Shown piece by piece: positions 11,373-20,781 of a stretch of DNA of 20,781 bases. The DNA comes from a virus. How positions within the stretch are numbered: the stretch's first letter is position 1; each line of letters starts with the position of its first letter. Under the pieces are notes generated by a model, which worked only from the letters and a program-made list of their open reading frames with translations, ran no database searches and was not told the DNA's origin. Position numbers and translations under genes: made by a program. Where the stretch lies: the IMG/VR virus record IMGVR_UViG_3300003583_000008, positions 5 to 20,785 of that record; one strand, 5' to 3'.

Positions 11373-14300
11373 TCAAGAAGAAGATCTGACTTGGGTATTA
11401 TAGTCAATTCTTGAAATTGTAAATGATGCTCCATTTTGTCCTGTAATTTTTTCAGCACCCAAAACTGCTTGCAATACAGCATCCTCTCCAGTTGTGTCTC
11501 CAACAGCATTAGTAACTGTTGTTGTAGGATGTAATACATTAGTTTCGACATATTGATTATATCCATATCCACCAGTAGTTATTGTTACTGATTCGATTTG
11601 GTCTCCTGCAACTGTCATAACTGGTGTTGCAACTACACCAATATCACCAATATTTTCAACGGAAATCGATGGCACAGATGAATAGTTAATACCTTGATCT
11701 GCGACAATAAAGTCTACAATTGTGCTGTTTGTAGAGAATTTATATAACAATCCACCTTCACCGATATTTGCATCTCCAGTGTTATATGGCACCACATTAT
11801 TAACCTGCAAGATTTTATCTGTAGGATTCCAAGCAACTACAGTTGCCTGAATTCCAGATTCAGATCCAGTAATAATTTCACCCGTGCTAAAGTTTTGTCC
11901 ATTACCTGTACCCAGAGTCATATTGATCAATGCATCATGAGGAATACCCTCACTCAATTGACCTGCAGTGACTACAGTTGCATAATTAAATGGCAATGTT
12001 GCATCCTTAATACTGTCTCCAACTTGGAAGAGAGTTGTATTCTGTCCACCGACTGTCTCTTCAATACCATACAGAGATACTGCAATACCACCATCCAAAT
12101 TAATTTGATTTTCGTATTGACTACCAGTATTTACTAGATCAGGAATCCCATTTCCAACACCTTCCAATTCGTCATCATCTTCAAAGTCCAATCCTGTAAG
12201 TGTGGAAATTGGTACAGTCAACAAAGTAATCGTATTGCCATCTGAGGCAACCAAAGTGTGGGGATTTGCTCCAGAAGCACTGCTAGTAGGAATTCCAGCA
12301 TCAAATTGCACAATTGCATCTTCGGTAGTTGGAATACCACCGTCAATAAATGCTAATTCATCAACCTCAAATGTTACTAATAATTCCTTGAGATTTGGAT
12401 TCCAATCATATACCTTAGCAACTTTATTCGTAGAGCTTTCTACTCTACGAATAACTCTATCCCCAACATTAAATTTATATTGAGAGATGCCAGCATCATT
12501 ATCTAGATTTGTGTCAAGCACAACTCTTTGATCATATTTAAATGTAACTCCCCTAGTTACACCTGTAAATGAATTGGCAGTTTTTCCTGTATACGAAATA
12601 GTCTCATTCTGAAGGAGTGCATCACCAGATCCAGGGAAAGCACTTGTATTACTAACGTAAATTGTAGTATCAGATGCTTCTGCTTTTTTAAGAAGTCCTG
12701 AAATATAAAGATTGCTAGAATTTAAAGACTGCCTTGCACTAACTTTTCTCCTTAGATTTACAAGTTTTGTGAAAAGGACACTAGGCACCGAAGTGAATTT
12801 AGATCCAGGATCAACTACATCAATACCGACAATTGATCCTTGATCTATTCTGGCAACTGCTTTAGCACCGCCACCACCACCGCCATTAATTAAAATGTAT
12901 GGTGCTTCTTGATAGAATTCTCCAGAATCAATAACATCAATTCTAGTAATTTTGCCTGTTGTGCTAACTTCTGCAGCACCTCTAGCACCCTGTCCACCAC
13001 CACCTTCAAAGATTAGACTTGGTGATGTTGCATATTGAGTGCCTTCATTTAAAAGAGTGAGTCCTGTCACAGATTGTACTACGGGACTTGCGGTTGCACC
13101 TGATCCAGATCCTCCAAGAATTCTTACATTTGCTGGACCAAAATACCCATCACCACTACGAATCATTTTCACATATTCAACTGCACCACTATCGTTTAAA
13201 ACAGGTTCTGCAAGAGCGCCACTAGGGAAATCTTGGGTAACTTCTGGGACTTCATCACCTACAAATAAGGGAGACCCATAGAAAGTCGGACCAACTACAT
13301 ATGGATAAACTGGATTTTGCTGATTATCCTCCGCCATAAAATATGCATAAGTGCCGTTTGGATATTCTGGCGTTACAGCAAATTTGCCATTATGTGCATC
13401 TAAGTTTCCAAGACCTTCTTCATAGATATAATCTTGCACAAAATCACCCATGATATATCCATCTTGGACAGATCTCAATCCAAGACCAGATGTTGAATAT
13501 GCAAAAGCATATAATAGTCTGGGAGCATCAACTAATACACTATATCTCAACTCTCTGGTTGTAGCACCAGTAAAAGAACTAAGGTAGACAGCATATGTAA
13601 CTTCACTGCCATCTATAAAATATCTCATTCCTGCAGAGAAGAGATAATCTAAATCTCCAATAACAGGAGGAGCTCCTACGTGCCAACCATCTTCCGTTGT
13701 AGAGAAGAATAAATGCTCACTATCATTTGAAGAATCGTCTTGATTGAAAATATATTCCTTACCTCTTTCTAAATTTAAAAGGTCTAACTCTTGCCCATTA
13801 AAAAGAAACTTATTATTAGACACAGTAACTGTATAAGTTACTTGACCTTCAGTGTTTTGTTGTGGTCTACCAGCAGTGACTTCATTACCAACTTTCAAGC
13901 GGTAAGATGATGTCATTAAACCAGCAGTTCTTCCCGAAGTATATCCAAAAGGACCATAAATTGGATAACCATCATATGCAACACCAATAATTTTAGAGTG
14001 TCCATCAGCATGTCTGGAATAGTCTGGTAGACCATTCGATAAGAAATTAGATCCAATATAATAATTATTTGGTAGTGGGTCACTGTCATTTGCAGGATCG
14101 AGGATCATATATCCTTCATCACCCTCATATCCAGACATGTATCTGTGATTTTTGCAATAATAATATATTCTATTAGTCTCATCCTCATTCATTAAGAATA
14201 GAGTTTGATATTCATTTTCATAATCTACAGAAGGAGCACCACTTGCTCCAGTGCTATCATAATACAATGTGCCAGTATTCAATGCACCATCTGCAGTAGT

Positions 14301-15509
14301 ACTAAACTGTATAGGATGTCCTATACCCTCAGCATTACTAGAATCAGACTGATTCCAAATAATCAGAGAATTTCTCTTGACTGTAATATTGTCAGGTATT
14401 GGATAATACTCACCTGGTGTAAATGGTCCAAATTCCTGAGCGTTTGGTCCAAATTCAATGTAGTATATATTAAGAGAAACTGGATCATCACTGATAGTAC
14501 ACTTAAATCCAGTATTGCCTAAGAGAAGATCGCCATTTGCAAATGTGCCATTGACTTCTCTCAGATATAATCTTGTAATATTATTGCTACCATCTCTGAC
14601 AATCTTAGCAACTTTTGCATAAGTCTCATTAGTGATAACATCAATTTGTCTACCAACTTCAAAAGGAGCAATAGATTCGTCAATTGATGTTACATCAATA
14701 GCAACGTTACCATACTCAACTTTTATTGTCCAAGTATATGGACGTATAAATCCATTTTCAAAAACACTATTTTTTTGAGCAAACTGACCGATTAACTTAT
14801 TAGTATGATAAAAATAGTTTGAATTGTCTATAACACCATCAAATTCATTATGTGATTTGATATGCTTGTGTTTTACTGTATCAATATTAAAGTTTACTGG
14901 TGCTCCCCCAACACCACCCCAGTCGGGAGTGTGTAGAAGAGTGCCATTTGCAAAAATTCCTAGAGTTTTATTACTCTGAAATGCCCTAGTACCAGAATCT
15001 GGTACATCTTTACCTGCACGATAAATGATCGTGTGGTCATAAGTATTATCTGTTAGGAGAGTATTTCCAAATTCTCTAATACCAGCAAGCAACGCTGGTT
15101 TTGGATTATTATCACTTTCTATACGAAGTCTATCAACAACTTCATTTTCTACAATTTGAAAATTACTTACTGTCTGAGAATTTGGAGTGCTTTGCCAAAT
15201 TCTATTTGGATTGAAAGAATTTACAACATCAGGAGTATCCTGTGAAGGTAAAATAGAAACTCGTATAGGATCATATCCTGATCCAGATTCTAAAACTCTA
15301 ACATGTATAATTCTACCCGCATCATCATCAATAATAGGATAGAGAACTGCTGCCTCTACAGGAGTGCCACATCCAGTAATAGTTAATCTTGGTGGATCGG
15401 AAGAAGTATATCCATCACCACCATTAATAACAGTTACTGATTTAATGCCATATACTTCATTAAATACTGGCTCGATTACTGCACCAGATCCAGGAATTTC
15501 TCTTGCCAT
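11373..15509 (-). CDS. YHYH-domain virion structural protein with cupredoxin-like domains, 1378 aa
   Basis: Residues 1-90 hold two GSGY-type repeats. Residues about 375-470 look like a cupredoxin domain with a complete potential type-1 copper set: His398, Cys452, His455 and Met458 in CKNHRYM. The YHYH domain follows at about 480-745, marked by IIGVAYDGYPIYGPFGY (507-523), SYRLK, then LGNLDAHNGKF and TPEYPNGTYAYF (713-724). A second cupredoxin-like segment (about 560-690), which has lost the Cys-His-Met end, is inserted inside the YHYH domain. Residues about 760-915 are four or five further GSGY-like repeats with poly-glycine turns, and the C-terminal third contains TSGA-type repeats and another GSGY-like unit. 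The gene starts four bases after the 409-aa stop (TAA TTAA ATG), so the two are co-transcribed. YHYH proteins are recurrent in marine T4-like phages without a proven function. A peripheral virion or adhesin role is inferred from neighbours and repeat content. Confidence 0.87.
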   Translation of the reverse strand: MAREIPGSGAVIEPVFNEVYGIKSVTVINGGDGYTSSDPPRLTITGCGTPVEAAVLYPIIDDDAGRIIHVRVLESGSGYDPIRVSILPSQDTPDVVNSFNPNRIWQSTPNSQTVSNFQIVENEVVDRLRIESDNNPKPALLAGIREFGNTLLTDNTYDHTIIYRAGKDVPDSGTRAFQSNKTLGIFANGTLLHTPDWGGVGGAPVNFNIDTVKHKHIKSHNEFDGVIDNSNYFYHTNKLIGQFAQKNSVFENGFIRPYTWTIKVEYGNVAIDVTSIDESIAPFEVGRQIDVITNETYAKVAKIVRDGSNNITRLYLREVNGTFANGDLLLGNTGFKCTISDDPVSLNIYYIEFGPNAQEFGPFTPGEYYPIPDNITVKRNSLIIWNQSDSSNAEGIGHPIQFSTTADGALNTGTLYYDSTGASGAPSVDYENEYQTLFLMNEDETNRIYYYCKNHRYMSGYEGDEGYMILDPANDSDPLPNNYYIGSNFLSNGLPDYSRHADGHSKIIGVAYDGYPIYGPFGYTSGRTAGLMTSSYRLKVGNEVTAGRPQQNTEGQVTYTVTVSNNKFLFNGQELDLLNLERGKEYIFNQDDSSNDSEHLFFSTTEDGWHVGAPPVIGDLDYLFSAGMRYFIDGSEVTYAVYLSSFTGATTRELRYSVLVDAPRLLYAFAYSTSGLGLRSVQDGYIMGDFVQDYIYEEGLGNLDAHNGKFAVTPEYPNGTYAYFMAEDNQQNPVYPYVVGPTFYGSPLFVGDEVPEVTQDFPSGALAEPVLNDSGAVEYVKMIRSGDGYFGPANVRILGGSGSGATASPVVQSVTGLTLLNEGTQYATSPSLIFEGGGGQGARGAAEVSTTGKITRIDVIDSGEFYQEAPYILINGGGGGGAKAVARIDQGSIVGIDVVDPGSKFTSVPSVLFTKLVNLRRKVSARQSLNSSNLYISGLLKKAEASDTTIYVSNTSAFPGSGDALLQNETISYTGKTANSFTGVTRGVTFKYDQRVVLDTNLDNDAGISQYKFNVGDRVIRRVESSTNKVAKVYDWNPNLKELLVTFEVDELAFIDGGIPTTEDAIVQFDAGIPTSSASGANPHTLVASDGNTITLLTVPISTLTGLDFEDDDELEGVGNGIPDLVNTGSQYENQINLDGGIAVSLYGIEETVGGQNTTLFQVGDSIKDATLPFNYATVVTAGQLSEGIPHDALINMTLGTGNGQNFSTGEIITGSESGIQATVVAWNPTDKILQVNNVVPYNTGDANIGEGGLLYKFSTNSTIVDFIVADQGINYSSVPSISVENIGDIGVVATPVMTVAGDQIESVTITTGGYGYNQYVETNVLHPTTTVTNAVGDTTGEDAVLQAVLGAEKITGQNGASFTISRIDYNTQVRSSS

Positions 15510-15513
15510 TTAA

Positions 15514-16743
15514 TTAGCTGACGACGTTGATAGTACCATTCATCAATGCATGAATTGTGCATTGGTAATAAAGAGTATTGGGTGCATTTAATGGGACTGT
15601 CCAATATAGGACGTTAGATCCACTTCCAGATTGCCCATCAGTATATGGTGTGCCAGTTAAACCCTGAGTAGATTGCAATCTAAACGGATGTCCCCCACCC
15701 TGCACCGAATTATCAAATGCATATGTGAATCCACGATACACATAAAGAGTTGGATCATTTTGAGTAGTTGGGAATCCTGGACCAGCAAATGTATAATCTG
15801 AAGCTCCGTTGGCATTCAATTCCCACCAAACAATAGGACTACGAGTTTTGACCCAATCAGTGCCGTTCCAATATAAAGAATCACCTTGGATAATACCACC
15901 AGTGAAATCTGTGTCAGTTAGTGCCGCCATAGATGTAATTGGCGTGCCAGTATAATTAATTGTTAGGGTATCGCCCACAACAGCTGTGCCAATATCTGTG
16001 CCACCAGCAATAACTAATGTATCTGCTTGAGCATCTGCAGTAGTAGACCCACTGTCAGAATCAAATGTAGAAAATATATTTAAAGATGAAATACCTGCTT
16101 GATCATCGGCAGGTTCCCATTTACCAGCAGTATTATCCCACTTAAGCACTTGTCCTTCAGTAGGTGCTACTGTAGTAGTATCAACATCCGACAGAATATC
16201 AATACTAGAATATTCTGTTACGAGTTTTGCTTTTACGTTTCCAGCACCACCTGCAGTGATATTAATGTTTACATAAGGATTATCATCACCGTTGACGGTG
16301 TAGTAATATCCCAAATTATCTCCAGCTGCAGGTCCAGCGGCAAGAGTTGTATATTCATTTACATATTTAATTTTAGTTGGGAAATCAACTAAATTATTTG
16401 CAGAATCAAAAGTTGCAGTATTTGTATTGTATCCAATAGTAACATTGGCACCAGATCCTGGTATGATGGGAATGTTTACACCCGAAGAAGAAACAATACT
16501 TTGTCCGTTTGTATTAAGATTACTTGTCAATTCAGTAATCTCGGTAGGCACAAATTGCGTGCCATTGTAACGTAAAAATTCACCACTCGCGGCATTTGCC
16601 ACATTGATCTGTGCAATAACACCGTTACCAACAGCGGCATACAGCTCGTCAAAATTCGAGTTGATTTTAATGCCGCCGTTGCGAATAGTGTCTCCACTAT
16701 TATCATTGGCAAGTGTGCCTACATTCAGGGTCTGTTTAGACAT
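15514..16743 (-). CDS. gp10-like N-terminus with C-terminal cupredoxin-like domain, 409 aa
   Basis: The first 41 residues match the N-terminus of T4 gp10, the baseplate tail-pin protein: here GGIKINSNFDELY (residues 23-35), in T4 GGIKINENFDELY, with the preceding DNSGDTIRN matching DGTGDYLRK. In T4 this end of gp10 attaches to the wedge protein gp7. The rest does not resemble T4 gp10. Residues about 53-305 contain degenerate repeats (EFLRYNGTQFVP, QVLKWDNTAGKWEP, DSLYWNGTDWVK) typical of phage fibres. Residues about 305-409 look like a cupredoxin domain with His352, Cys395, His398 and Met401; CTIHALM has the Cys-X2-His-X2-Met spacing of amicyanin. It is the first gene after a late-type promoter and is followed within four bases by the YHYH gene. 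A wedge-anchored peripheral spike is the likely role; copper binding is unproven. Length 409 against 602 for T4 gp10. Confidence 0.82.
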   Translation of the reverse strand: MSKQTLNVGTLANDNSGDTIRNGGIKINSNFDELYAAVGNGVIAQINVANAASGEFLRYNGTQFVPTEITELTSNLNTNGQSIVSSSGVNIPIIPGSGANVTIGYNTNTATFDSANNLVDFPTKIKYVNEYTTLAAGPAAGDNLGYYYTVNGDDNPYVNINITAGGAGNVKAKLVTEYSSIDILSDVDTTTVAPTEGQVLKWDNTAGKWEPADDQAGISSLNIFSTFDSDSGSTTADAQADTLVIAGGTDIGTAVVGDTLTINYTGTPITSMAALTDTDFTGGIIQGDSLYWNGTDWVKTRSPIVWWELNANGASDYTFAGPGFPTTQNDPTLYVYRGFTYAFDNSVQGGGHPFRLQSTQGLTGTPYTDGQSGSGSNVLYWTVPLNAPNTLYYQCTIHALMNGTINVVS

Positions 16744-16774: not shown

Positions 16775-16800
16775 TTATCAATCCAACTCAGGATTGATAA
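16775..16800 (-). repeat. Perfect inverted repeat across the end of the large upstream gene
   Basis: TTATCAATCC and GGATTGATAA form a perfect 10-bp stem with a 6-base loop, covering the last codons and tandem stops (TGA TAA) of the gene ending at 16778. No T-run follows on the minus strand (the next bases are CCACATAAATAAC), so it is not a standard intrinsic terminator. It may be a weak terminator, an RNA 3'-end stabiliser or a processing site placed directly before the late promoter. Confidence 0.6.
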
Positions 16801-19800
16801 CTTCAACACCGTATTGAGATAGATCTGGTGCTACCCAATCATCAGGTACTGATGTTTCAACTTCGATCGCGGGAGTCTCATAATTAGATCCGCTATTAGA
16901 AATAATTACGCCACCAACACCGACCAGGGGTTTAATATTTCCATTAAATCCACTAATAGAATCAACTCTAATTACAGGTCTAGAAGTATATCCAGATCCA
17001 GCAGAAGTAACTCTAACGTCGGAAATATAACCAGTATTTAGTATCACTTGTCCCTGAGCATCCTTACCAAAGATAGATCCAAGGTAATCGAAGGTAATCA
17101 GAGAGTTGGAAGATTCGATAACTGCAACTTCACGATCGGATGTCTCGCCTTGGATGTCAATGAAATCACCTGCTTCGATTGGTGGGACAACTTCAGCAGC
17201 ATCAACGTCTGCCTCAGATCCAACGTAAGAGAATGCGACGAAGGTCGATCCCACGCGAGGAATTTCAGAGAAGATGATTCTAGAACCAACGATTTCAAAA
17301 CCAACTCCAGGTTCTTGAATAACACCATTGAGCGAGACGATAATGTTATTTTCTGGTCTGATGTTGGTGGATTGGACACCTTCAGTCAGGGTCAAGGAGT
17401 AGAAGACTCCGTTTCTTCTGAGGTTGAAGGATTGTCTTAGCGAATCGAAGTCGAAAGAGATATCATCTAATTTTCTTAGTTTACCAACGTAGTAACCTGT
17501 AAATGCAGATCCCTGCGAAGGCGGCTCGGTAAACTGAATCTTATCCGCAAATGTTGTGAATCCTTCTCCAGGAGGTTGTAAGATGCCATTAATAAATGTG
17601 AGTAGATGACCTTCAGTATCAGGTAAATATTGAATGCCATTACTAATAGTGAGATCAAATGTAGTCTGGGATCCATCAAATCCTCTAAATGCTCTCTTGA
17701 CTCTACCTTTCAATTCTACAAGATTTGTAATTGCAGATCTATAACCATTGACGGATTTGATGGAATCTCTAGAAGAGAAGGTGCCGATAATTCCGCTTAG
17801 GTAAAGTCTACGATTCAAACCAAACGTTTGGATAGACTGGACGATTGCACTAGCTGCCCCAGAATTTTCAACAGTAGTTGAAACTAATGCTTCACCAATA
17901 GGAAGTTGGTTAATATCAGTATATTGAGCGACTGTTACACCATTTCCAAATGTGCCCTCAATCACAACTGCGTAAAGGAAATTATTTTCCAGATCAACAT
18001 CAGTAATAATTGCTCTTTGTGCTGGGTCTCTTGTACCGTTTACAATCTTATAAAGTATTCCACCCTTAGTAAAGATATTTCTATTATTTTGAATTGTAAT
18101 ACCAAGGACAATATGACCAAGAGATGTAATTCGATCACCAACATTGACCTCAAAAGATCCTCCATATTTGATAACATCAATATACAATCTCGATGTCGAT
18201 GGATAAATTACACTATTAACTTCAAACAATCCAGTTAATGAATCAGTATCAACAACTAATTTGCCATCCGTATTGGTTAATACAGCAGCTTCAATTTTGA
18301 CAAATTCATCTGGCGTAGCAACAGAATTTGATGTGTATCCTTCAAACTGAATATCCTCAGCAAAATCACCTTGGAGATCAATTACTTGAATTCGATCTTG
18401 GATATTACCAATTTGTGCAGTTGTGCCATTTTCATCACCAACCATGGTGTCTAAAATAGTCCATGGTTGACCAGTTATTTCAACATCAAGATAATCATAA
18501 TTAGCATCCGAGTGAATACTATAAACAATACCAGTTACAGTAGCATCTCCCTGCTTTTGAATAGTCTCATTAACATTAAATGGACCATCTGTAATATCAC
18601 CTTCAATACGGAATCTCTTAAATACCTTCACAATTTTTGCTTCATTTAAAGTAGTATTTGAGACTTCAGCGTAAGAATCGCTAGTTTTGCCATAAATGTA
18701 ATCACTATCTTCAATCGCACCAGAAAGTGGTACTAGAAGATCTCTTGTGCCATAGGTATATGTGGGAATAGTGATTCCATTATTTGTGGTAACCGTTGCA
18801 TAGTAATTGCCATTAAGAAGTTGATTTAAAATAATATTAAGATTTTGTCTTATAAATCTAGCAATAGTATCAGTTTGATAAGAAGAAGCATAATCAGAGT
18901 CATAGAATGAAGTGAATCCAGAATTACCTGACGGTGAAGCAAGGACACCATTTAAAGCACTGACAGTAAGATCTTCTAAAGTTTCAATAGCAAATTTCTT
19001 AACATTATATTCTGTATTTGAATAGAAGATTTGACTGGATTCAGAACTGTAAGTATCAAGTCCACCCTCATTTAACTTCATACCCCACATATATGCTTCA
19101 TCATTTAAGTTTGCACTGAAGCTTGTCCCACCTCCTCCTGGAGCACGGAGATACTGGAAGAATCTGACTAATTGATATCCATAGGAAACTGAGAATGTGA
19201 AGTAGAATCTAAACCACCCATTGCCATATGGGACAGAACCATATTCTTCAATATCAAATGCTTGTCCCTGACTACTAATATCGCTAACAACGCCAGTCTC
19301 AATATTGACTCTAGAGAAGTTAATTCTCTGAGTAGTTGAGCTACTATAAGCTTGGATTCGCACGTAAAGCTCATCATAATCAACAGACTTAGCGAAGAAT
19401 GAATATGTAAACTGGCGTTTCGATCCATCACCAGGAGCACCTTCATCAAACGTTGTATTGCTAGTATCAAATCTGATACTACCATTATCTAATGTTTCAT
19501 ATGCAGTTAGATAATAATCCCGATACACATAATGGGAGGTAGTCGCTGTAGTATTTGATCTCCATGCAATTGCAGTTTGTGTTGCATCTGGAGCAAGGGC
19601 AGCAGCATTAACAAGATTCGATCCCGATCGTCTCCAAGTGCTGGTAGTTGCAAACTCTGGATTAGTTAGTAAGTTTGCAGAGATAATTGCTCCTTCAACT
19701 AAAGATGATATATTTCTTGCCGTATTGATAGTTTCAACATTAGCGATATCATTATAATAATTAATTTCAGGTCCAACACCATTGGAAGGAATTTCTGCAG

Positions 19801-20781
19801 TAACCAAACCTTGTGTCAGAGTATCACCATCCGCAAATCCAGATCCAGTGATAGATCCAATATAAAGATTATTACCAGAATCTTCTAACACATTACCAGT
19901 TGTGCCACTACCATTAGTAATTTCTGCATTAACAATAAATCTGCTGTTATCGAGAGAAACAGATAGATCTGTAATAGTGCCAGGATTAGTGGTGCCACCA
20001 CCAGTAAGAGTTGCCGTAGGTGGATTTGCAGGATCGTATCCTGATCCAGGATTAGTAATATTGATAGCAGCAATACCAATACCAGTTACAAGTTCAACCT
20101 CTGCGGTAGATGGTGTGCCACTTTCAAGTGGTGCATTGTTTACCGCAATCGTTGTATCGATACTAAACTGTTGAGCGCCATCGATCAAACCAATTCTAGT
20201 AACACCATACTGATCAAAAGTTCCATCGGTATACTGATCCTGCTGGAATCGGAAGTAGATTGTCTGTGCTCTTGCAAGGGTAGGTAAGGTTATATCAACA
20301 TAATTTAGAGTATTAAAGTTTGTGTATTCTTTAGAAGTTCCAGTTGATCCACCCTCAACAAGTGTATCAATCAATACCCAATTAGATCCAGTAGTAGAAT
20401 AATATAAATCCAAATCTTCATTAAGTTCTGGAGCATTGCCACCGTTACTACCACTACCAGCAATAACATAAACTCTAATAGTTTCTGCATAAGTGGTATC
20501 AAATGGTGTTTGGATAGATGCAAAGCGACTGCCCGATCCAGTGCCAAACAATAGTAACTGTCTACCCGTCAACATTCCACTTGTGCCTGCAGTCATAGAA
20601 ACTGCAGATCCTAATGTTAAAGCACTAATGACTGAATTGTTAAAATCATATACGATACCATCGTATGTAACAGCAGTTACAGCACCATTAGTAAGAGTTG
20701 AGCTACCTCCATGAGAATCACCTACATCAAACGTAGATCCAGTAAATACCAGATCTGGGGAGAATGTATATCCAGATCCAG
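16778..20781 (-). CDS. Very large adhesin/baseplate-type structural protein (5' end beyond window)
   Basis: The frame is open through the right edge; 61 complete codons precede the Met at 20596, so that Met is internal and at least 1333 C-terminal residues are visible. Modules in order are: a GSGY repeat at the edge; a reelin-like segment (about 20494-20171) with LDLYYSTTGSNWVLIDTL and AQTIYFRF; more GSGY repeats; a jelly-roll-like segment (about 19675-19045) opening NLLTNPEFATTSTW, with FTYSFFAKS and NGWFRFYFTF; several TSGA-like units; two tandem fibre repeats (about 17700-17190) with LLTFINGILQPPGEGF and IIVSLNGVIQEPGVGF; and two terminal GSGY units. The C-terminus is APDLSQYGVEVINPELD. 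The modules suggest a surface-exposed virion protein with sugar-binding segments. Its place just before a gp10-like gene and gp8 makes a highly expanded gp7 a possibility, since gp7 carries gp10 in T4, but I see no clear T4 gp7 signature. Confidence 0.82.
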   Translation of the reverse strand, partial: GSGYTFSPDLVFTGSTFDVGDSHGGSSTLTNGAVTAVTYDGIVYDFNNSVISALTLGSAVSMTAGTSGMLTGRQLLLFGTGSGSRFASIQTPFDTTYAETIRVYVIAGSGSNGGNAPELNEDLDLYYSTTGSNWVLIDTLVEGGSTGTSKEYTNFNTLNYVDITLPTLARAQTIYFRFQQDQYTDGTFDQYGVTRIGLIDGAQQFSIDTTIAVNNAPLESGTPSTAEVELVTGIGIAAINITNPGSGYDPANPPTATLTGGGTTNPGTITDLSVSLDNSRFIVNAEITNGSGTTGNVLEDSGNNLYIGSITGSGFADGDTLTQGLVTAEIPSNGVGPEINYYNDIANVETINTARNISSLVEGAIISANLLTNPEFATTSTWRRSGSNLVNAAALAPDATQTAIAWRSNTTATTSHYVYRDYYLTAYETLDNGSIRFDTSNTTFDEGAPGDGSKRQFTYSFFAKSVDYDELYVRIQAYSSSTTQRINFSRVNIETGVVSDISSQGQAFDIEEYGSVPYGNGWFRFYFTFSVSYGYQLVRFFQYLRAPGGGGTSFSANLNDEAYMWGMKLNEGGLDTYSSESSQIFYSNTEYNVKKFAIETLEDLTVSALNGVLASPSGNSGFTSFYDSDYASSYQTDTIARFIRQNLNIILNQLLNGNYYATVTTNNGITIPTYTYGTRDLLVPLSGAIEDSDYIYGKTSDSYAEVSNTTLNEAKIVKVFKRFRIEGDITDGPFNVNETIQKQGDATVTGIVYSIHSDANYDYLDVEITGQPWTILDTMVGDENGTTAQIGNIQDRIQVIDLQGDFAEDIQFEGYTSNSVATPDEFVKIEAAVLTNTDGKLVVDTDSLTGLFEVNSVIYPSTSRLYIDVIKYGGSFEVNVGDRITSLGHIVLGITIQNNRNIFTKGGILYKIVNGTRDPAQRAIITDVDLENNFLYAVVIEGTFGNGVTVAQYTDINQLPIGEALVSTTVENSGAASAIVQSIQTFGLNRRLYLSGIIGTFSSRDSIKSVNGYRSAITNLVELKGRVKRAFRGFDGSQTTFDLTISNGIQYLPDTEGHLLTFINGILQPPGEGFTTFADKIQFTEPPSQGSAFTGYYVGKLRKLDDISFDFDSLRQSFNLRRNGVFYSLTLTEGVQSTNIRPENNIIVSLNGVIQEPGVGFEIVGSRIIFSEIPRVGSTFVAFSYVGSEADVDAAEVVPPIEAGDFIDIQGETSDREVAVIESSNSLITFDYLGSIFGKDAQGQVILNTGYISDVRVTSAGSGYTSRPVIRVDSISGFNGNIKPLVGVGGVIISNSGSNYETPAIEVETSVPDDWVAPDLSQYGVEVINPELD
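16986..17001 (-). repeat. GSGY-coding repeat, exact 16-base copy 1
   Basis: The 16 bases CTGGATCTGGATATAC (minus strand) are identical to those at 20766-20781. Both encode Gly-Ser-Gly-Tyr in the same frame of the same gene, 3.8 kb apart. Near copies with one to three changes occur in the YHYH gene (about 15268-15285) and at about 20036-20052. Confidence 0.7.
17190..17700 (-). repeat. Two tandem fibre-type protein repeats
   Basis: Two adjacent units of about 80 residues share the pattern LLTFINGILQPPGEGF...IQFTEPPSQGSAFTGYYVG and IIVSLNGVIQEPGVGF...IIFSEIPRVGSTFVAFSYVG. This N-G-[IV]-[LI]-Q-x-P-G-x-G-F motif recurs in phage tail and fibre proteins as a small beta-rich repeat. The copies have diverged at the nucleotide level, so this is an old duplication rather than a recent one. 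Confidence 0.75.
20766..20781 (-). repeat. GSGY-coding repeat, exact 16-base copy 2
   Basis: This is the second exact copy of the 16-base GSGY-coding string at 16986-17001. It ends at the window edge, so the identity may extend further. Confidence 0.7.

Follow-up and report, generated by a model that had tools for sequence, protein, structure and literature searches.

The Locus and Its Genes

The window, by which we mean the whole stretch of viral DNA analysed here (about 20.8 kb), comes from a near relative of Synechococcus phage S-MbCM6, the equivalent domains of the two being 100% identical. On its minus strand, genes for baseplate and structural proteins follow one another in the order and with the lengths found in S-MbCM6 (Table 1). 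One of these genes encodes a 409-aa protein whose counterpart in S-MbCM6 is annotated "baseplate wedge tail fiber protein connector", and it is the C-terminal part of this protein that concerns us most. The motif residues named in the original prediction, His352 in GGHPF and Cys395, His398 and Met401 in CTIHALM, lie exactly at the positions given for them, and the segment that bears them is indeed residues 300-409 of the 409, ending in NGTINVVS.

The 409-aa protein passed the Pfam family PF07880 (T4_gp9_10_N) with 38.7 bits against a cut-off of 25, over residues 3-118, and residues 1-408 of the 409 were aligned with positions 1-409 of the 412 in phrog_677, "baseplate wedge tail fiber protein connector" (gp9), at an E-value of 1.7e-184. 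In addition, residues 1 to 41-58 matched places annotated as gp10 in many T4-like phages, with a gp9 feature adjoining, and in KVP40 the match to the N-terminal residues fell on gp10 alone. Since PF07880, the gp9 family phrog_677 and gp10-annotated places are all matched, "gp9/gp10-like" is a safer name than the "gp10-like baseplate protein" of the original prediction, of which the baseplate part stood and the restriction to gp10 did not. Upstream, a large structural protein (16778-20779, minus strand) has a match over cut-off to Reelin_subrepeat-B at residues 70-194.

Table 1. Features of the window discussed in the text, and the basis on which each was assigned.
Feature	Positions	Strand	Basis
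Neighbouring wedge protein of the baseplate, 1378 aa (phrog_708); YHYH region, cupredoxin-like copies D1 and D2	11373..15509	-	ORF, family matches, S-MbCM6 counterpart
D2 of the wedge protein, about residues 554-686; retains the predicted fold without Cys-His-Met	13452..13850	-	Alignment, high-confidence model, rusticyanin match
D1 of the wedge protein, about residues 345-476; His398, Cys452, His455 and Met458 intact	14082..14477	-	Motif, profile match, conservation, moderate-confidence model
Domain-bearing gp9/gp10-like baseplate protein, 409 aa	15514..16743	-	ORF, PF07880, phrog_677, S-MbCM6 counterpart
Predicted cupredoxin domain, residues 300-409	15517..15846	-	AlphaFold2 pLDDT 93.3, PDB fold matches, profile matches to nitrite reductase, amicyanin and plastocyanin
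Met401, predicted axial ligand	15541..15543	-	Sequence, hhalign pairing
His398, predicted second equatorial ligand	15550..15552	-	Sequence, hhalign pairing
Cys395, predicted thiolate ligand, sole Cys of the protein	15559..15561	-	Sequence, hhalign pairing
His352 (GGHPF), predicted first equatorial ligand	15688..15690	-	Sequence, pairs with plastocyanin His
N-terminal T4 gp9/gp10-type region, residues 3-118	16390..16737	-	PF07880

A Predicted Cupredoxin Fold

An AlphaFold2 model of a 115-residue domain, built on an alignment of 53 sequences, had ten strands and a pLDDT of 93.3. Foldseek searches of the PDB with this model had as their best matches rusticyanins, three-domain nitrite reductases, AcoP, pseudoazurin and amicyanin (1aaj and others), and laccases and further multicopper oxidases appeared at lower ranks among the 50 matches listed; the PDB fold matches listed are cupredoxins or proteins with cupredoxin-fold domains. 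In VIA-align the top match was residues 24-132 of the Hyphomicrobium nitrite reductase 2dv6 (Z 10.6, rmsd 2.1 Å over 93 residues, 23% identity), an N-terminal domain that is a type-1 copper cupredoxin, followed by rusticyanin 2cal (Z 9.1, rmsd 2.8, 95 residues). The cupredoxin-like domain that had been proposed from the sequence was thus borne out by the predicted fold.

Profile searches led to the same families. A profile of 19 phage domains, run against the PDB with hmmsearch, matched nitrite reductase 6hbe at 1.2e-6 (two weak stretches summed), amicyanin 1sf3 at 6.8e-5 and plastocyanin 1b3i at 2.3e-4, pseudoazurins were also matched by the phage-domain profiles, and a profile of 53 phage sequences recovered the same families more weakly. 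A search of the PDB with the single window sequence gave no cupredoxin and weak antibody matches only. The 409-aa protein passed no Pfam or NCBIfam copper family cut-off: it scored 13.7 bits against the amicyanin family TIGR02657 (equivalog cut-off 110.2) and 17.9 bits against the At5g54830-like family PF25489 (gathering cut-off 27), and had no match up to an E-value of 1 in the plastocyanin/azurin family PF00127, which 5 of 19 aligned relatives did match, at best with an E-value of 0.0012. No solved phage relative of the domain was present among the best 60 of 77 and 45 of 45 profile matches in the PDB. Together, the model and the profiles support the prediction that the C-terminal 110 residues are a true cupredoxin domain with a Greek-key barrel.

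The Four Predicted Ligand Residues

The 409-aa protein has one Cys (395), two His (352 and 398) and three Met (1, 272 and 401). A chance motif was ruled out by shuffling of the 110-residue domain, in which the string C-x2-H-x2-M arose in 30 of 200,000 shuffles, together with the conservation of the ligands across relatives; an intrachain disulphide was ruled out by the single Cys of the window protein and by the finding of exactly one Cys in 77 of 90 full-length gp9-type proteins. When the domain was aligned by hhalign to the plastocyanins of Syn9, S-SCSM1 and P-SSM2 (probability 82.7%, P 9.5e-6), His paired with His, Cys with Cys, His with His and Met with Met. In HMMER alignments the first His paired in the nitrite reductases and was shifted against amicyanin and plastocyanin. 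The four residues are accordingly in type-1 register on the sequence, with His, Cys and His as the predicted equatorial ligands and Met as the predicted axial one.

All four ligands were kept in 34 of 34 domain sequences less than 85% identical, a count that left out one copy (L051_1506) with Met changed to Gln. The same was true of every one of 90 distinct gp9-type proteins anchored at the N-terminus, a number that includes the window's protein and leaves aside eight matches without such anchoring; of the 90, 30 were less than 60% and 16 less than 50% identical to the window's domain, and all 74 that were left after the removal of 16 from a Cys-pattern scan kept the ligands as well. All 90 belong to loci retrieved by means of the domain, and the set gives no measure of the share of gp9 proteins without it. 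The codons under the ligands varied in 98 gp9-type proteins (CAT/CAC 67/31 for the first His, TGT/TGC 74/24 for the Cys and CAT/CAC 76/22 for the second His), and such synonymous variation places the constraint on the protein.

Beyond the gp9-type proteins, distinct copies of the domain were collected from 245 sources, and 238 of the 243 complete copies, i.e., those with all four columns filled, had His-Cys-His-Met, five having another combination. A further 34 partial copies were set aside, 14 of them with another residue at the first His, and 13 of those 14 were D2 copies (see below). How the sources were gathered bears on such counts: loci L001-L080, L097-L132 and L133-L151 came from scans of six patterns each, any one of which was sufficient and one or two of which touch ligands, and loci L166-L244 were fetched by a pattern containing Cys and His, so that the ligand counts there are not independent. 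With the Cys-pattern scan left out, the full set was found in 86/88, 31/31 and 15/15 complete copies per source. The rows of alignment A3 had been chosen for all four ligands, and their invariance, being there by construction, was not used as evidence.

One feature of the site departs from precedent. The residue after the first His was Pro in 229 of 238 copies, the window's included, Ser in one and Asn in none. In blue-copper proteins an Asn (or Ser) in this place is common, though not obligatory, and the Asn helps to hold the Cys loop; His-Asn was found in the plastocyanins of the three phages. The site may thus be atypical and tuned differently from those of blue-copper proteins. That the domain may bind copper, as originally suggested, is a well-supported prediction from sequence and model.

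Two Further Copies in the Neighbouring Wedge Protein

Next to the 409-aa gene lies that of a 1378-aa protein whose S-MbCM6 counterpart is annotated as a baseplate wedge subunit, and it has two cupredoxin-like copies of its own, D1 and D2. The D2 model found its best PDB match in rusticyanin (Z 8.4, rmsd 3.0 over 103 residues, 9% identity), and because D2 keeps its predicted fold without the ligands, the fold would not appear to need them. Among 85 relatives of the wedge protein, D1 had His-Cys-His in all 75 ungapped rows and the Met in 72 of 73, and the D2 motif was lost in 76 of 76 rows that have D1, the window among them. Ten rows without D1 (L082, L085, L133, L134 and L136-L141, of the S-SSM4 type) had His, Cys, His and Met all present in D2, an arrangement opposite to that seen in the window's lineage. 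In the three rows without a full motif in either copy, D1 had kept His-Cys-His and lost the Met alone, the ligand that is absent from some known type-1 sites. In sum, there was one His-Cys-His site in each of 86 aligned wedge proteins (82 distinct), 76 in D1 and 10 in D2. That one site is kept per wedge protein, and that the axial Met is the first to be lost, is the pattern expected of selection for a metal site, and D2 is a natural ligand-less control.

D2 seems to be inserted in the YHYH region (13275-14477, minus strand), as PF14240 matches in two stretches, the best of them at residues 685-729 just after D2 and the other, placed by eye, before D2 near residues 500-525.

Spread over Phages and Other Genomes

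The domain is not peculiar to the window's phage and recurs on several virion proteins. It was matched in 338 of 50,697 phage records at an E-value of 0.01, many of them near-identical isolates, and the names among the matches listed were mostly of the "baseplate wedge tail fiber connector" kind. Other carriers include fibre proteins (in Sf-CH8, a pelagiphage and a Methylophilales phage), fibre-like proteins in two podoviruses (P-GSP1 and P-SCSP2), large proteins in S-BM3, P-HM2 and S-H9-2 and, in S-SCSM1 and P-SSM2, the proximal tail fibre. The S-SCSM1 carrier bears a "virion protein" note in its record, and 45 virion proteins of that phage are reported from mass spectrometry (PMC9602691). 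A structure search of BFVD returned 66 viral models at an E-value of 0.001 or below, the named ones among the 50 matches listed being mostly cyanophage proteins. A few "beta-sandwich proteins" annotated to the giant viruses Pithovirus and Marseillevirus also match the domain model there, with Foldseek E-values near 3e-6.

Outside recognised phages, one pattern scan of bacterial and archaeal species genomes gave 14 loci, of which at least one (L152) looks like a phage, with a PF07880 match just under cut-off, and others had collagen-like proteins or At5g54830-like matches that were mostly under cut-off. In L153 and L159, both contigs from bacterial assemblies, the domain (residues 328-436 of 1011 aa and 693-788 of 1565 aa, respectively) is linked to collagen-like repeats, and the L159 protein also has the kind of Peptidase_S74 chaperone end seen in phage fibres. 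No plasmid-borne relative was found in 72,556 plasmid records at an E-value of 0.1.

The generality of the domain was gauged in 12 genomes hand-chosen via gp8 from 60 listed of 530, two of them outgroups (BUCT-ZZ01 and Rhizobium phage IG49) and one, S-WAM2, already known to match by fold in BFVD. It was present in six (P-SSM4, S-SSM6b, Bellamy, S-RIM44, S-SSM7 and S-WAM2) and not found in S-T4, S-CAM7, ACG-2014f, the lake phage BUCT-ZZ01, S-CREM2 and Rhizobium phage IG49. With only half of the sample positive, the domain is frequent, yet dispensable for T4-like cyanophages as a group. Five of the positive genomes each had an intact copy, and the single copy found in S-WAM2 had lost all four ligands; S-H38 has a gp9/gp10-like protein without C-x2-H-x2-M. 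The original prediction had looked to the invariance of the ligands among homologues: this held throughout the gp9-type proteins and broke down in paralogous copies, namely D2, the five divergent complete copies and S-WAM2. S-SSM7 (L255, W21) has three N-termini of the gp9/gp10 type, of which two exceed the cut-off, and also a separate open frame of 251 aa with the cupredoxin domain at its end.

Nine of 18 searched records had PF07880 over cut-off; the gp9/gp10-like protein bore the domain in six of these, whereas in S-SCSM1, Melnitz-1 and S-H38 it lay elsewhere; 17 of the 18 had been fetched for the domain and S-H38 for the gp9 N-terminal part. That gp9-borne and fibre-borne copies are mutually exclusive is only suggestive. 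The domain appears to have been shuffled between carriers, though the carrier tree is poorly resolved and has a loose carrier label, few columns and an unsettled bootstrap.

A free plastocyanin gene over the PF00127 cut-off was found beside the virion cupredoxin in five of seven genomes tested (G001, G002, W03, W06 and W16). A recent copying of the phage plastocyanin was ruled out, as three petE proteins have another ligand loop than the virion domain and another residue following the first His; the two may have a distant common origin.

Proposed Role and Its Alternatives

Overall, the explanation we consider probable is that an intact type-1-style cupredoxin is carried on a baseplate protein as a metal-locked joint or attachment module. 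Its metal-binding part, in which we infer both copper as the metal and its occupancy in virions, is very likely right. The domain as a joint between baseplate and fibre, taken on its own, is argued from position and is a much more tentative reading: the domain is C-terminal in gp9-type proteins and near the N-terminus in several fibre proteins of other phages. In the mechanism proposed, each chain in the virion would hold one copper ion, bound by His352, Cys395, His398 and an axial Met401, and a particle would have about 18 such sites if the trimer follows that of T4 gp9, with those of the wedge protein added. The copper would tie the His loop to the Cys-His-Met loop, giving a firm surface, and that surface would be the meeting place of baseplate and fibre, or of fibre and host surface.

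A receptor-binding or adhesion head, in which the domain touches the host surface and the metal merely stabilises binding loops, is a reading that we find doubtful, and it draws on two observations: in 59 of 90 anchored gp9-type proteins no residues follow the domain, and the domain occurs on many tail-fibre proteins. In several fibre and other proteins (e.g., L088, L238, L223 and L148), however, it starts within the first 8-20 residues, and the N-terminus of a fibre is usually its virion-proximal end. Moreover, receptor tips tend to diversify, whereas in five of the six phages compared the domain was more strongly conserved than the remainder of the gp9-like chain: identities in the domain and in the N-terminal 289 residues were, respectively, 80 and 53% for Syn9, 78 and 58% for S-SSM5, 83 and 57% for ACG-2014a, 73 and 53% for ACG-2014b and 44 and 36% for ACG-2014d, and in S-RIM14 they were even, at 50 and 51%.

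A different soft metal, e.g., Zn(II), is distinctly improbable as the natural ligand. Cys-His-His sites can, as a matter of general knowledge, bind other soft metals in vitro, but the ligand set here is that of type-1 copper proteins, with an axial Met that was the first ligand lost in three D1 copies.

The original prediction had also allowed that the fold might be kept only as a rigid tip, i.e., a beta-sandwich without metal. D2 of the wedge protein is just such a case, and the S-WAM2 copy is likewise ligand-less, so that this suggestion fits D2; for the window's gp9-type copy it is disfavoured, and we rate it as highly unlikely, since the ligands were retained in every one of the anchored gp9-type proteins, even those less than 50% identical in the domain, and D2 shows that the fold can do without them.

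We attach equally little probability to electron transfer, whether by a redox-active site that exchanges electrons with carriers of the host surface or periplasm or by a redox sensor that triggers the baseplate. The ligand set and its spacing are those of amicyanin-like electron carriers, and free plastocyanin is encoded by five of the seven phage genomes tested; against this, there is no known partner, the domain is also found on phages of non-photosynthetic hosts (Pelagibacter, Methylophilales), and the many different virion carriers fit a structural or binding use better. Least probable of all is a metal decoy, in which tail copper would pass for a copper complex at the uptake receptors of the host, much as the Ferrojan-horse idea has it for iron in phage tails. 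HxH iron sites are reported in phage tail fibres (PMC11705849), but nothing pointing to a receptor or to uptake was found here, the site is of another type than HxH pairs and the metal, judging from known cupredoxins, would be largely buried.

Novelty and Meaning

The superfamily itself has long been known, and what seems new is the architecture. Among the papers listed by searches of the open-access PMC literature, none was seen to describe an intact-ligand cupredoxin fused to baseplate or fibre proteins of tailed phages. In the family libraries searched the protein was named and the domain was not, and a copper-type site has thus been overlooked behind labels of the "baseplate wedge tail fiber connector" kind.

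T4-like cyanophages abound in the sea, and the predictions suggest that the tails of many marine cyanobacterial viruses may carry copper. If copper is indeed held, the phage tail would be a copper protein, and copper would join the iron already reported in phage tails. It would also give a handle on cyanophage attachment, through chelation, Cys mutation and spectroscopy, with a bearing on trace-metal cycling in the ocean. A bolder and unlikely extension is that cyanophage tails have dozens of type-1-style copper centres at their baseplate-fibre joints, the metal or redox state of which would govern attachment or firing and so link infection to copper and redox at the host surface.

Comparison with Known Systems

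The nearest likeness in the ligand loop is to amicyanin (TIGR02657; 1aac, 1sf3), which has the same C-x2-H-x2-M near its C-terminus. The phage domain differs from it in being fused to a virion protein, in scoring far below the family cut-off and in having Pro after the first His, where amicyanin has Asn. The best fold match, the N-terminal cupredoxin of the Hyphomicrobium three-domain nitrite reductase (2dv6, 6tfo), is part of an enzyme and not of a virion. The plastocyanin of cyanophages (petE, an auxiliary metabolic gene) belongs to the same superfamily, and some genomes carry both, but it is encoded as a protein by itself, some 110 aa long, whose N-terminus is signal-like and which has His-Asn and C-x2-H-x4-M, whereas the virion domain has His-Pro and C-x2-H-x2-M.

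Among structures of phage tails, the resolved fibre N-terminus of P-SCSP1u is a jelly-roll barrel plus a helix, and the word "cupredoxin" is absent from the main text of that report (PMC10575957). HxH iron sites have been reported in phage tail fibres, i.e., T4 gp37 and that of alterophage R22Y, with the metal bound or proposed to be bound (PMC11705849). These too place metal in a tail protein of the virion, but as His-x-His pairs in fibre trimers rather than in a folded cupredoxin site.

In its architecture, the closest comparison is with T4 gp9 and gp10 (PF07880; 1S2E, 2FKK), which have the N-terminal region in common with the window protein. By analogy with T4, the window protein is probably a trimer at the edge of the baseplate. 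The T4 proteins end in other C-terminal domains, and it is the place of these that the cupredoxin occupies in the window protein. T4 gp9 is described as a trimer with 18 copies per tail, whose N-terminal domain binds gp7 and whose C-terminal domain is where the long tail fibre attaches (PMC3004832). As it is the C-terminal domain of gp9 that binds the fibre, the cupredoxin would, if the gp9 reading is right, stand at the fibre-binding place.
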